A DNA stretch of 44,071 nucleotides from Clostridia bacterium (GTDB lineage Bacteria; Bacillota; Clostridia; UBA1381; UBA9506). Shown one piece after another: positions 10,801 through 30,901 of this stretch; position 1 is the first letter of the stretch; each line of letters begins with the position of its first letter. The notes under the pieces were generated by a model, which was not told where the DNA came from, searched no databases, and worked only from the letters and a program-made list of their open reading frames with translations. The position numbers and the translations under genes are program-made. Where the stretch lies: the NCBI GenBank assembly GCA_017396465.1, contig JAFQLU010000082.1:1-44071 (forward strand), read 5' to 3'.

Positions 10801-11271
10801 GCAGATGCATTAAACGAATGGATTGGCACAAACAGAAACTTTGCCCGTCCGTTAAACCGTGAAGACAAGCTGGTTGAAAACAGCGGCACAATCGGCGCTA
10901 TGGAAGTATTCTCCGCAAAAGATTCCCGCGTGACCAGAACCGGTGACTGGGAGGAAGGCGGCAACTACTTAGTAACCAGAACAACAGGCTCTGTATTAGA
11001 GTTTGACTTTACCGGCGATATCTTATGCTTCGAAACAGCGTTGCATCAGTATGCAGGTAAAATCGAGGTGTATATCGATGACGAGTATGTATGGACAGAC
11101 AACCCGTACTACAATATGGCAGGTCACCAGATGACCGTTCGTAACGGTAACTTCAACTTCGACTTAGAACCCGGAGATCATCATGTGGTTCTGAAAGTGG
11201 TTGACGGTGACAACACCGCAGAACAGATGGAAACCAGAATATACAACATCTTTGCAGGTTCCTGGAAATAA
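7840..11271 (+). CDS. Secreted multidomain protein with SGNH/GDSL esterase domain
   Basis: An 1143-aa exported protein. Signal peptide at 1-26 (PAQA). The N-terminal two thirds is a series of beta-rich binding-type modules: about 30-225, about 230-400 and about 415-600, then an Ig-like stretch. At about 738-805 is the 'AAYDxNNQLV...KLFIWD' module also seen in its neighbours. The SGNH hydrolase lies at about 815-995: block I VFVGDS825I, glycine in SYGG (about 866), N896 in TCND, and D975GVH978PN. These supply the Ser, Gly, Asn and Asp-His residues of the family. A C-terminal beta-sandwich (about 1005-1143, ending GDHHVVLKVVDG) follows. Likely a secreted deacetylating esterase acting on polysaccharide, by inference. 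RBS AAGGAGAGGAG precedes the ATG. Confidence 0.85.
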   Translation: MKKLISFGIVLTMLISMMAFTMPAQAMGENPGFPMLYETFESEEALKNVSTAGPCSATLSISDDGYNGSSGSLHFLQTAGTDYVDIGYTAGVGGLKVPDGEKLKLRMKIKSNVELANNYFTFIFYGSGTISDPGSTGKQVGEKAPSGWLEIVFSNVMKYGEWVVVEKDIVWGEQTLTIGSGSKLTDVTLDRLAIRVGNRSGINTDVKGEKLDYQIDDLSLVLAPSDDFTSDSVGSISSQSYTATNTPTAPSKWGNPDMTTNINFKPGRLYKITGNFRCDTLPDDTEGYTDDMKPTKANLRIYWLAGSRLDNGLASSSYPSTYFYDLKLNEDNNLTIYYIADGQTFSFPEGFALKFRMYTDAKDRTWKDGSLQATSQGGANAGTAGKFTYSNVTYEDLGMATGINHEIEPGAYYVRNSMIMDAEAYPVPGFDDNGACNLEIMNEDGNRFVKTTGTSDYGSLTSGGVQMKNKHTYRISVKAKTEGLAEGESKPFTVILNSANSALQEDADYPYKHDASYIFLNGNPEYPNGIGGEKHKWFVTNEWQTFTMDYTVSLGLKDGMSESAQAMPITPRLQFRLGANAEQMGAVTYLDDISVTDLGILDESLMGNGKYATVSDVTFEKVGKSGIKVDYNYNPYVDEKEDRAQSLIRAFIETENGDRNIGTFQANEVFQVPASALGEEISYEVIPVSTEGVVGNGAIATCEYIFDLLIGKSLTVNTAKTEATWKVDVDAADANANGYLVGLAAYDTNNQLVASNLETCAVNAGSNSFGDTFSVPAEAVKLKLFIWDAVTLAPQDEVLEKALPAPIDDPFAGDDEVNIVFVGDSIYANAGAGSEQNGFVYQVGEWMKQNYAAEGRTINWYNTSYGGTTTDYTFVRFQRDVIAKDPDMVFFCMTCNDGSGTETIRNAESCMRMLAELDNKPYVVLTLLTNRGFGNSTVKTEQVANFYGLPYFDNFEAQRKAVEAGTPVEDLYTNDGVHPNPAGYKVIADALNEWIGTNRNFARPLNREDKLVENSGTIGAMEVFSAKDSRVTRTGDWEEGGNYLVTRTTGSVLEFDFTGDILCFETALHQYAGKIEVYIDDEYVWTDNPYYNMAGHQMTVRNGNFNFDLEPGDHHVVLKVVDGDNTAEQMETRIYNIFAGSWK

Positions 11272-11277
11272 GAATGT

Positions 11278-11415
11278 AAAAAAAGTTCAGACCGTCAAAA
11301 GGCATTTATAAGCCTTTTGACTACGAGCAAACTTCACCCTCGCTGTATCTGTATACAGCTTCGGGCACCCAATGCGCAGGCATTGGTTCTGTTTGCTCAT
11401 TCTGAAGCATTTTTT
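11278..11415. ncRNA. Structured intergenic element, copy A (unknown RNA family)
   Basis: It starts 7 nt after the stop at 11271. Stems: outer TTCAGA/TCTGAA (11286-11291, 11401-11406) flanked by A and T runs; a 10-bp hairpin (11294-11303 with 11312-11321); GAGCAAAC/GTTTGCTC (11325-11332, 11391-11398) enclosing CTGTAT/ATACAG (11343-11348, 11353-11358) and CCAATGC/GCATTGG (11369-11375, 11380-11386). The blocks AGACCGT, TCACC, TCGCTGTA, CAGCTTCGGG and TTCTGTT recur in copy B. Orientation is unclear. On the minus strand the internal loop is GAA/GA and the outer stem is followed by seven Ts, which slightly favours that strand. Confidence 0.6.
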
Positions 11416-11440
11416 CCTATTCTTACAGAATGTAATGTGG

Positions 11441-11478
11441 CAGTTCGGATTTCTTTTTGAAGTCCGAACTGTTTTTTT
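11441..11478 (+). terminator. Intrinsic terminator after the SGNH gene
   Basis: A 9-bp stem CAGTTCGGA/TCCGAACTG (11441-11449, 11463-11471) followed by TTTTTTT. Plus-strand transcripts from the SGNH gene would read through copy A before stopping here. Confidence 0.85.
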
Positions 11479-29238: not shown

Positions 29239-30609
29239 ATGAGCAAAAACTGGGCAAGTGTAGATTTAAACACCGTTCCCAATATGGTATCCGCGACCGT
29301 TCCCGGTCCAAAATCCGTGGAATACCACGAAAGATGTGCAAAGTACATGAAAGGCTATTCCAGCCAGGTAAAGCTGTTCCCCGTAACATTTGAAAGCGGT
29401 TACGGTTATACATTAACCGACGTGGACGGCAACAAATACTTAGACTTTTCTTCCGGTATCTATGTAACCGGATTAGGTCATTGCCATCCGAAAATCAGTG
29501 AAGCTGTTGCAGAGCAGGCTAAAAAGCTGATGAACTGCCATGACTTTACCACAAAGGTAAAGATGGAATTGGTTGAAAAGCTGCATGAAATCACCGGCGG
29601 CAGATTCGGCGGTTTCCAGTTCTACGATTCCGGTACCACAGCTGTGGAAGCAGGTCTGCGTTGTGCAAGAGCTGCAACAGGCAAGCAGGAATTCATTTCC
29701 TTCTGGAGAGACTTCCACGGTAAGACTTACGGCGCAAATTCCTGTGCTGTTGTAGGCCCCGACACCCATATGAGAGCACCCGGCTTCATGCTGGCTCCCA
29801 GACCCAATCCGTATCGTGACTTCTTTGGCAGAACGCCTGAAGAAGCTTGGAAAGATTCTTCTCCCTACATCAGAATGATTGAGGGTATTTTAGATAATCA
29901 GTGCGCAAACGGCGGCAAAAATGTTGCGGCAATCGTATTAGAACCCGTTCAGGGTTGGGGCGGCTCCATCATTCCTCCCGACGATTTCCTGCCCGCACTG
30001 CGTGAACTGTGTGACAAACGCGATATTCTGTTGTTTGCTGACGAAGTTCTCAACTGTATGGCAAGAACCGGTTCCTGGCTTGCTATGGATCATTGGGATG
30101 TTACTGCTGATATTACCACACTGGGTAAGGGCTTTGGTAACGGTTTCACTGTAACCGCTCTGGCAGTTTCCGAGGAATTAGCTCCTGCAATCGAAAAGAT
30201 TTCCGCTTCCTCCAGCTACGGCGGCAACCCCATGGCTTGCGTTGCGGCGCTTGAATCCATTAAGGTTATCGAAGTAGAAAACCTGAACGAACGTTCCAAG
30301 CACTTAGGCGAAATCATGCTGAAGAGAATGCAGAAGATGATGGAAGCACATCCCATTATCGGCGATGTTCGTGCAATTGGCTGTCTGCAGGCGATCGAAG
30401 TCGTAAAAGACAGAGAAACCAAAGAACCTTTCGCAGAAGCAGGTACCATGATTTACCAGAAAGCTTTCGAAAAAGGTCTGGCTTGGGTTCCCTCCGGTCA
30501 CATCCTGCGTATGTCTCCTCCCATGATTTTAGACGATGAAGCGGCTCTGAAGGGTCTCGACATCATCGAAGAGGCAGTGGCAGAAACAGAAAAACATTTC
30601 GGTTATTAA
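29239..30609 (+). CDS. Class III PLP-dependent aminotransferase
   Basis: A 456-aa pyridoxal-phosphate enzyme of the class III (ornithine/4-aminobutyrate) type. PLP contacts: D268 in LLFADEV, the Schiff-base lysine K297 in TTLGKGFGNGF, and 'FYDSGTTAVEAGLRCARAATGK' upstream. 'YLDFSSGIYVTGLGHCHPKI' and 'SSYGGNPMACVAALESI' are also family motifs. The substrate could be ornithine, 4-aminobutyrate, beta-alanine or a similar omega-amino compound; sequence alone does not decide. The ATG at 29239 follows GAGGG; an upstream frame to 29188 has no site. The structured element, copy B, begins 12 nt after its stop. Confidence 0.92.
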   Translation: MSKNWASVDLNTVPNMVSATVPGPKSVEYHERCAKYMKGYSSQVKLFPVTFESGYGYTLTDVDGNKYLDFSSGIYVTGLGHCHPKISEAVAEQAKKLMNCHDFTTKVKMELVEKLHEITGGRFGGFQFYDSGTTAVEAGLRCARAATGKQEFISFWRDFHGKTYGANSCAVVGPDTHMRAPGFMLAPRPNPYRDFFGRTPEEAWKDSSPYIRMIEGILDNQCANGGKNVAAIVLEPVQGWGGSIIPPDDFLPALRELCDKRDILLFADEVLNCMARTGSWLAMDHWDVTADITTLGKGFGNGFTVTALAVSEELAPAIEKISASSSYGGNPMACVAALESIKVIEVENLNERSKHLGEIMLKRMQKMMEAHPIIGDVRAIGCLQAIEVVKDRETKEPFAEAGTMIYQKAFEKGLAWVPSGHILRMSPPMILDDEAALKGLDIIEEAVAETEKHFGY

Positions 30610-30620
30610 GATGCGGCGTC

Positions 30621-30817
30621 AAAAATAGCATAGACCGTGCAAAACAAAAAAAGCCAAAGCTTTTGTTTTGTGTGTAATACGAAGAAGAACATCTTTCGGT
30701 AGAAATTTGCTTTGCAAATTTCTTTAGATGAAGGTTTTGTACTTTGCGAGAACATCACCTCTCGCTGTACCGTATGTACAGCTTCGGGATTCTGTTCTCA
30801 CAATCTATACCTTTTTT
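30621..30817. ncRNA. Structured intergenic element, copy B (unknown RNA family)
   Basis: Same architecture as copy A at 11278-11415. Outer ATAGA/TCTAT (30630-30634, 30804-30808); hairpin CAAAACAAAA/TTTTGTTTTG (30640-30649, 30661-30670); GAGAACA/TGTTCTC (30748-30754, 30793-30799) enclosing CTGTAC/GTACAG (30765-30770, 30776-30781). An extra hairpin, AGAAATTTGC/GCAAATTTCT (30701-30710, 30714-30723), is inserted. Conserved blocks: AGACCGT 30632-30638, TCACC 30755-30759, TCGCTGTA 30762-30769, CTTCGGG 30782-30788 and TTCTGTT 30790-30796. Stem bases differ from copy A in a paired way. The strand is undecided. Confidence 0.6.
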
Positions 30818-30847
30818 ATCCGCCTTGTCCGGGTGAAACTATAAAAA

Positions 30848-30882
30848 GAAAGAGGGCTGTTGCTATGGCGGCAGCCCTTCTT
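30848..30882 (+). terminator. Hairpin upstream of the third Gfo/Idh/MocA gene
   Basis: GGGCTG (about 30854-30859) pairs with CAGCCC (about 30872-30877), with AAAGA/TCTTT around it. It lies just before the ribosome binding site of the gene at 30902, so it may be a weak terminator or a translation-control hairpin. No clear promoter was seen between it and the gene. Confidence 0.4.
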
Positions 30883-30901
30883 TGAAATGAAGGAGAACAT
30901 T

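Follow-up and report, generated by a model that had tools for sequence, protein, structure and literature searches.

A dispersed intergenic element with a conserved branched fold at the ends of genes in ruminant-gut Clostridia

Two copies of a branched element in one contig

The window analyzed here covers positions 1 to 44,071 of contig JAFQLU010000082.1 of a Clostridia bacterium draft assembly (GCA_017396465.1), and it contains two copies of a structured intergenic element. Copy 1 lies 3' of a gene coding for a 1143-aa protein with a GDSL-lipase domain and copy 2 lies 3' of a class-III aminotransferase gene; both are located directly 3' of the stop codons (coordinates 11269–11271 and 30607–30609, respectively). 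The copies share five sequence blocks in identical order (AGACCGT, TCACC, TCGCTGTA, CAGCTTCGGG and TTCTGTT), and we confirm both these blocks and the compensatory changes proposed to distinguish the stems, in which CTGTAT/ATACAG is replaced by CTGTAC/GTACAG and CAGA/TCTG by TAGA/TCTA. The outer stem of the original prediction is real but was drawn too short, and it spans 11270 to 11424 in copy 1 and about 30615 to 30824 in copy 2.

Each copy folds better than all 200 of its dinucleotide shuffles on both strands, with z-scores of -8.6 (+) and -8.9 (-) for copy 1 and of -5.4 (+) and -6.8 (-) for copy 2. The architecture is that of a three-way junction: an outer stem (P1) leads to the branch point (GACC..), from which arise P2, a hairpin whose length differs greatly between copies, and a conserved core (P3). 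The most conserved part is enclosed by the outer stem of P3 and has the form TCRCC-N-CTC-(6 bp)-loop-(6 bp)-TTCGGG. The coordinates of these features in both copies are given in Table 1, where R1 denotes the covariance model described below.

Table 1. Features of the two element copies in the window.
Feature	Coordinates	Strand	Basis
Copy 1, entire element P1-P2-P3	11270–11424	- (upstream gene on +)	Folds; R1 match 11320–11407, 71.9 bits; strand inferred from family
Copy 1, P1 5' arm (AAGAAT, A-tract, TTCAGA)	11270–11291		Pairs with 11400–11424 in fold
Copy 1, P2 hairpin, short form (GTCAAAAGGC / GCCTTTTGAC)	11294–11321		Fold
Copy 1, P3, outer stem GAGCAAAC/GTTTGCTC	11325–11398		R1 model work, P3 covariation, folds
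Copy 1, P3 inner stem (GCTGTA / TACAGC)	11342–11347 / 11354–11359		R1 model work, P3 covariation, folds
Copy 1, P3 further features (conserved CTC and TTCGGG; extra hairpin)	11369–11386 (hairpin)
Copy 1, P1 3' arm (TTCTGAA, T-tract, ATTCTT)	11400–11424		Fold
Copy 1, direct repeat AGAATGTAA of P1 5' arm (11271–11279)	11427–11435	+	Read from sequence; 9 bases in one copy, weak
Ordinary terminator hairpin, directly 3' of the copy 1 direct repeat	11441–11478
Copy 2, entire element, longer P2 with additional hairpins	30615–30824	-	Folds; R1 match 30741–30810, 80.9 bits
Copy 2, outer P1 (GGCG pairs with CGCC)	30615–30618 / 30821–30824		Fold
Copy 2, inner P1 (ATAGA pairs with TCTAT)	30630–30634 / 30804–30808		Fold
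Copy 2, P3 (GAGAACA/TGTTCTC)	30748–30799		R1 model work, fold
Copy 2, P3 inner stem (GCTGTA / TACAGC)	30764–30769 / 30777–30782		R1 model work, fold
Copy 2, downstream hairpin AAGAGGGCTGTTGC..GGCGGCAGCCCTTCTTT, companion-terminator type as in relatives	30850–30884		Read from sequence

Family size and distribution

A covariance model of the P3 part (R1), built from 11 copies on the strand of the upstream gene, identifies 22 matches in the draft genome that contains the window (E<1e-8), some of them partial at contig ends and some perhaps a single locus split between contigs; the exact core TACAGCTTCGGG occurs eight times. The homologues expected from the original prediction are abundant here, and many more occur in the relatives. 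Far from the two-copy element first described, this is a dispersed family: copies at unrelated loci can be near-identical, some copies form tandem arrays, and some orthologous sites are empty. Several contigs of genome G000 (C6, C8, C20, C51, C55, C56, C89, C113 and C114) have copies at their ends, which suggests that the elements break the assembly.

Across the order, R1 finds the element in 58 of 95 genomes at 0 to 38 copies each. It is patchily distributed also among members of a single genus, whose genomes have 0, 0, 7, 9, 10, 12, 18, 25 and 25 matches. None of 397 other genomes from across the phylum has an R1 match at E≤1e-5, a search in which the model is narrow and the filters are strict. 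Named records that carry the element are mainly bins of Clostridia or Oscillospiraceae from the ruminant gut. The element is about 150–230 bases long, or 260–310 bases if the companion hairpin described below is included.

It had been suggested that this might be a known Rfam family, and Rfam 15 at its gathering threshold gives no match in the window, in the elements of the relatives, or in distant core-like copies; sub-threshold hits are confined to short alignments that look like chance and differ in family between copy 1 and copy 2. No description of the element was found in the open-access literature, and judged against these two sources the family is undescribed. Comparative screens of human microbiomes have reported thousands of unnamed candidate structured RNAs (PMC8040213). 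The element resembles those candidates in being intergenic and covarying; the comparison made here covers the families of Rfam 15.

A weaker core-like motif, which likewise follows stop codons and has the same orientation, is present in Fibrobacter bins, in one proteobacterial bin, and in Oscillospiraceae from chicken and rabbit. With about 30 bases behind it, the putative homology of this distant motif is a lead only. A CTC-stem-TTCGGG hairpin is found immediately 3' of stop codons at L421, L422, L425–L430, L432, L436 and L439; the host genes, judged by eye, are apparently rpsN in Oscillospiraceae and a pgk-like gene in Fibrobacter, and the proteobacterial bin has it too. This hairpin may represent a wider, old motif family, and in several Fibrobacter bins the core-like motif lies at the same gene ends and looks vertically kept. 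In a sheep-colon bin (L247:7305–7602), P3-like cores are part of another tandem repeat (CATCTTTTGGCGAAACCG..; about 230 bases), with an architecture unlike that of the main family.

Conservation of the fold and the constrained strand

Among 105 distinct aligned copies, the P3 partners pair in 94.8% of cells compared with 79.0% in shuffled controls. In 13 of the 15 P3 pairs both partners change, and such double changes account for 234 cells, against 67 after shuffling. The covariation score is 0.418, compared with 0.156 in shuffled controls and at most 0.089 when the partners are slid relative to one another. The P3 alignment was fitted to R1 and so leans towards structure, and yet this is an unlikely cause of the signal because both the slide control and an independent test of the P1 and P2 arms speak against it. 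In that test the arms pair better with their own partners than with those of other copies (28.2 versus 21.9 for P1 and 20.2 versus 15.9 for P2; 0 of 2000 permutations), differences that are somewhat inflated because the arms were located partly by their pairing. The preference also holds within a single genome. Two copies (C113 and L183) have swapped P1 tracts, with TTTT/AAAA in place of AAAA/TTTT.

The mismatches are not symmetrical between the strands. On the strand of the upstream gene, the 15 P3 pairs contain 45 A.C cells versus 15 G.T cells and P1 contains 155 versus 60, whereas P2 is neutral in the same count (47 versus 44). At one further covarying P3 position, 74 of 105 rows have A.C or C.A, and the alternatives are AT, GC, CG and TA. 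Read on the complementary strand, the A.C cells become G.U or G.T wobbles, pyrimidine mismatches become purine ones, and the conserved loops are purine-rich (CCCGAA / GAGNGG). The asymmetry in wobbles and mismatches therefore indicates that the constrained folded strand is the complement of that of the upstream gene, and since R1 was built on the upstream-gene strand, any bias from the model would oppose this result. The proposal of a conserved RNA holds for the fold, but it was made on the strand opposite to the constrained one. From these alignments we infer that the functional form is probably the folded complementary strand; RNA and single-stranded DNA are alike compatible with the strand test.

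Placement at gene ends and the companion hairpin

The gene to the left is co-directional with the element in 87 of 101 cases and the gene to the right is convergent in 60 of 105, counts that come from mechanical ORF calls in which tandem copies are counted singly and small false ORFs are included. The genes to the left are mostly unrelated to one another. In many copies P2 contains a hairpin with a T-run, resembling a terminator.

The 5' arm of P1 (for example, GGGGCTGTAGCAAAATGC) is repeated directly beyond the element, mostly within a terminator hairpin whose 5' arm it forms. With a local repeat score of at least 20, this arm repeat is present in 54% of copies compared with 1% when the flank is shuffled, and the score is higher with a copy's own flank (23.7) than with flanks taken from the other copies of that genome (19.0). 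Locus-specific variants of the arm are sometimes common to both arms, as at L111 and L152. The arm repeat, at 14–21 bases, could be a target-site duplication; a search for such duplications gave only short, A/T-rich matches, and the signal for insertion into a palindrome is weak.

The terminator hairpin beyond the element is near-identical at a number of loci, with the form GGGGCTGTAGC-AAAAT-GCTACAGCCCC or a longer GGAGCTGTAGCAAAATG..CATTTTGCTACAGCTCC (L442–L450, and genome-wide in G015 and G008). This companion hairpin is by itself an abundant dispersed repeat that mostly occurs where the structured element is absent; G015 has at least 82 matches to its arms. Seven gut-phage records of 4–9 kb (MT837245.1, MT838271.1 and five others) contain a hairpin up to 90% identical to it. 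A viral or plasmid origin of the element was considered and rejected, as two exact core patterns were not found in the viral collection and a plasmid search gave no match for copy 1 or for the companion hairpin.

Dispersal, occupied and empty sites, and arrays

The site 3' of rny has a plain terminator in most relatives, but two tandem copies in G016 and one each in G011 and G013; G019 is element-free at this site though its protein is 98% identical. The rpmB site carries the element in G016 and G019 but not in G013, and elsewhere G013 has the arm repeat once, with the element missing. Two pairs of copies from unrelated loci (L106/L108 and L060/L061) are 99% identical and have sharp ends, while copies at orthologous sites are as little as 61–75% alike, with one site shared by G018 and G011 at 97%. 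Near-identical copies at unrelated loci, arrays, and occupied and empty orthologous sites together point to recent dispersal; homogenization of old copies by gene conversion could be an alternative to recent movement. The original prediction had named a simple mobile repeat with no transcript as an outcome that would refute it, and the dispersal comes close to this, but the fold is strongly conserved.

In the near-identical pairs, identity begins at the P1 arm and stops 3' of the companion hairpin, and the units so defined have inverted-repeat ends. Since the companion hairpin is also abundant alone, these sharp ends may be due in part to its own spread rather than marking where a mobile unit ends. 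Terminal inverted repeats are likewise present in many copies if this independently occurring hairpin is counted, and they are not clear in the window copies.

Tandem arrays (L107, L105, L131, L112, L050, L164 and L183) have periods of about 110, 215 and 220–236 bases, and a truncated 5' arm often follows the last unit. In L310:1181–3160 (G013, 3' of rny), the P2 stem is a 52-base inverted repeat, 85% complementary, that encloses 1.75 kb with two genes, one for a four-helix-bundle protein (119 aa) of the 23S-IVP family (PF05635) and one for a putative lipoprotein (206 aa), and P2 can therefore hold cargo. In L441:355–900 (G015), the inner P3 hairpin is enlarged by about 170 bases.

Comparison with known systems and candidate movers

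Bacterial MITEs such as RU-1 and RU-2 are small non-autonomous elements (PMC2759123, PMC2229807). The element is similarly short, intergenic and dispersed, nearly all copies are without a gene of their own, several near-identical pairs have inverted-repeat ends, and dispersal of the MITE kind is seen in the near-identical copies at unrelated loci. It differs from MITEs in its conserved three-way junction, strong compensatory change and strand preference, in its single orientation 3' of stop codons, and in that no parent insertion sequence was found. REP/BIME sequences, which go with RAYT (Y1) transposases (PMC2817692), are also folded, dispersed, extragenic, close to gene 3' ends and sometimes arrayed, but the element is much larger and branched, and several copy-rich genomes have no detected Y1_Tnp domain.

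Two further systems share aspects of the placement. The attC sites of integrons fold on the bottom strand, lie 3' of stop codons and form arrays, as the element does, but GTTRRRY boxes are present in 0 of 137 copies and RYYYAAC boxes in 9, never both, and no cassette arrangement was seen. Group IIC introns are structured and target terminator hairpins; the element is also structured and at terminator hairpins, but it is far shorter, Rfam recognizes no intron domains in it, and in several copy-rich genomes RVT_1 was not detected. Membership of the REP/RAYT, attC, 23S rRNA intervening sequence (IVS) or retroelement classes fails in each case on a tested feature. In its spread the element works like a MITE or REP-type repeat, and in its constraint like a structured RNA.

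None of the candidate movers searched for tracks copy number, and Y1 transposase, reverse transcriptase and 23S-IVP were each rejected. Y1_Tnp at E≤1e-5 is missing from G000, G001, G002, G008, G011 and G015 (11–25 copies each), RVT_1 at E≤1e-8 from G011, G015, G016, G013 and G012, and 23S-IVP from the copy-rich G011 and G015; all of these genomes are drafts, and the absences are therefore only suggestive. A 23S-IVP protein as the element's own gene was also rejected, as the L310 insert is a single case. Neither the listed arm matches of five genomes nor about 0.8 Mb of G013 contained a recognized wider end pair with a gene, as would be expected of an autonomous parent.

Interpretation

The reading that we favor, with about an even chance of being correct, is that the element is non-autonomous, dispersed and MITE-like, that its folded single strand is the functional form, and that it is moved by a factor acting in trans. 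This reading brings together the covariation, the complementary-strand asymmetry, the co-directional placement 3' of stop codons, the arm repeat, the dispersal and the patchy counts (0–38 per genome). On this view, the conserved P3 core and the junction are what a trans-acting recombinase or transposase would recognize in the folded strand, and the enzyme would place the unit at terminator hairpins, one arm being duplicated; insertions may be tolerated because the P2 and companion hairpins could still terminate the host gene. Against movement, there is neither an autonomous copy nor a mover among the candidates searched, and the target-site duplication is not clean. The vertically kept look of the core-like motif in several Fibrobacter bins also speaks against it.

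The strong covariation, the purine-rich loops and the wobble asymmetry are also what a new family of structured non-coding RNAs would show if made from the complementary strand, either as an RNA of its own or as the 3' end of a convergent transcript, acting as RNA or by binding protein, with copies spread by duplication. We consider this unlikely: placement follows the upstream gene (87 of 101) and not the downstream one (60 of 105), visual inspection of the stretch from the element to the companion hairpin shows no evident promoter of its own for the complementary strand, copies shift sites, and their number per genome is erratic. The same placement, post-stop, oriented like the upstream gene and in place of a plain terminator, together with the terminator-like hairpin and T-run in P2 of many copies, would suit a structured terminator or 3'UTR element in the sense-strand mRNA that terminates or protects the transcript; however, the sense strand has fewer G.T pairs than A.C cells, a terminator in P2 would stop the transcript ahead of P3 synthesis, and the P1 arms are flipped to T-tract/A-tract in two copies, and we regard this explanation as improbable.

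Three more readings also involve movement. In one, which is decidedly improbable, the element would move as a folded single strand that finds its target by base pairing, the 3' arm pairing with an arm of the terminator hairpin, such that P1 would be the record of a guide-target duplex, P2 could serve as a cargo bay, and the mover would be of an unrecognized kind. An attC-like folded site for an integron-like tyrosine recombinase, with the bottom strand active, is consistent with the bottom-strand fold, the post-stop position, the direct arm repeats and the tandem arrays, and is nonetheless very unlikely given the box counts above (GTTRRRY in none of the copies, RYYYAAC in 9) and neighboring genes that are ordinary and have no cassette arrangement. 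A short retroelement, in which a reverse transcriptase copies complementary-strand RNA and primes at gene ends, would account for the folded complementary strand, the orientation and the direct target repeat, but RVT_1 was not found in the copy-rich G011 (96% complete, 24–25 copies), G015, G016 and G013, and we give this reading very little weight indeed.

Small dispersed repeats in bacteria are usually simple hairpins or inverted-repeat relics. The element described here is instead a branched, strand-specific fold under strong selection that repeatedly replaces terminators at the ends of unrelated genes, at sites that differ between close species and with no recognized mover. If it is mobile as we favor, it would be a lead to an unknown recombination system; if it acts as an RNA, it would be a new and abundant RNA family of ruminant-gut Clostridia.
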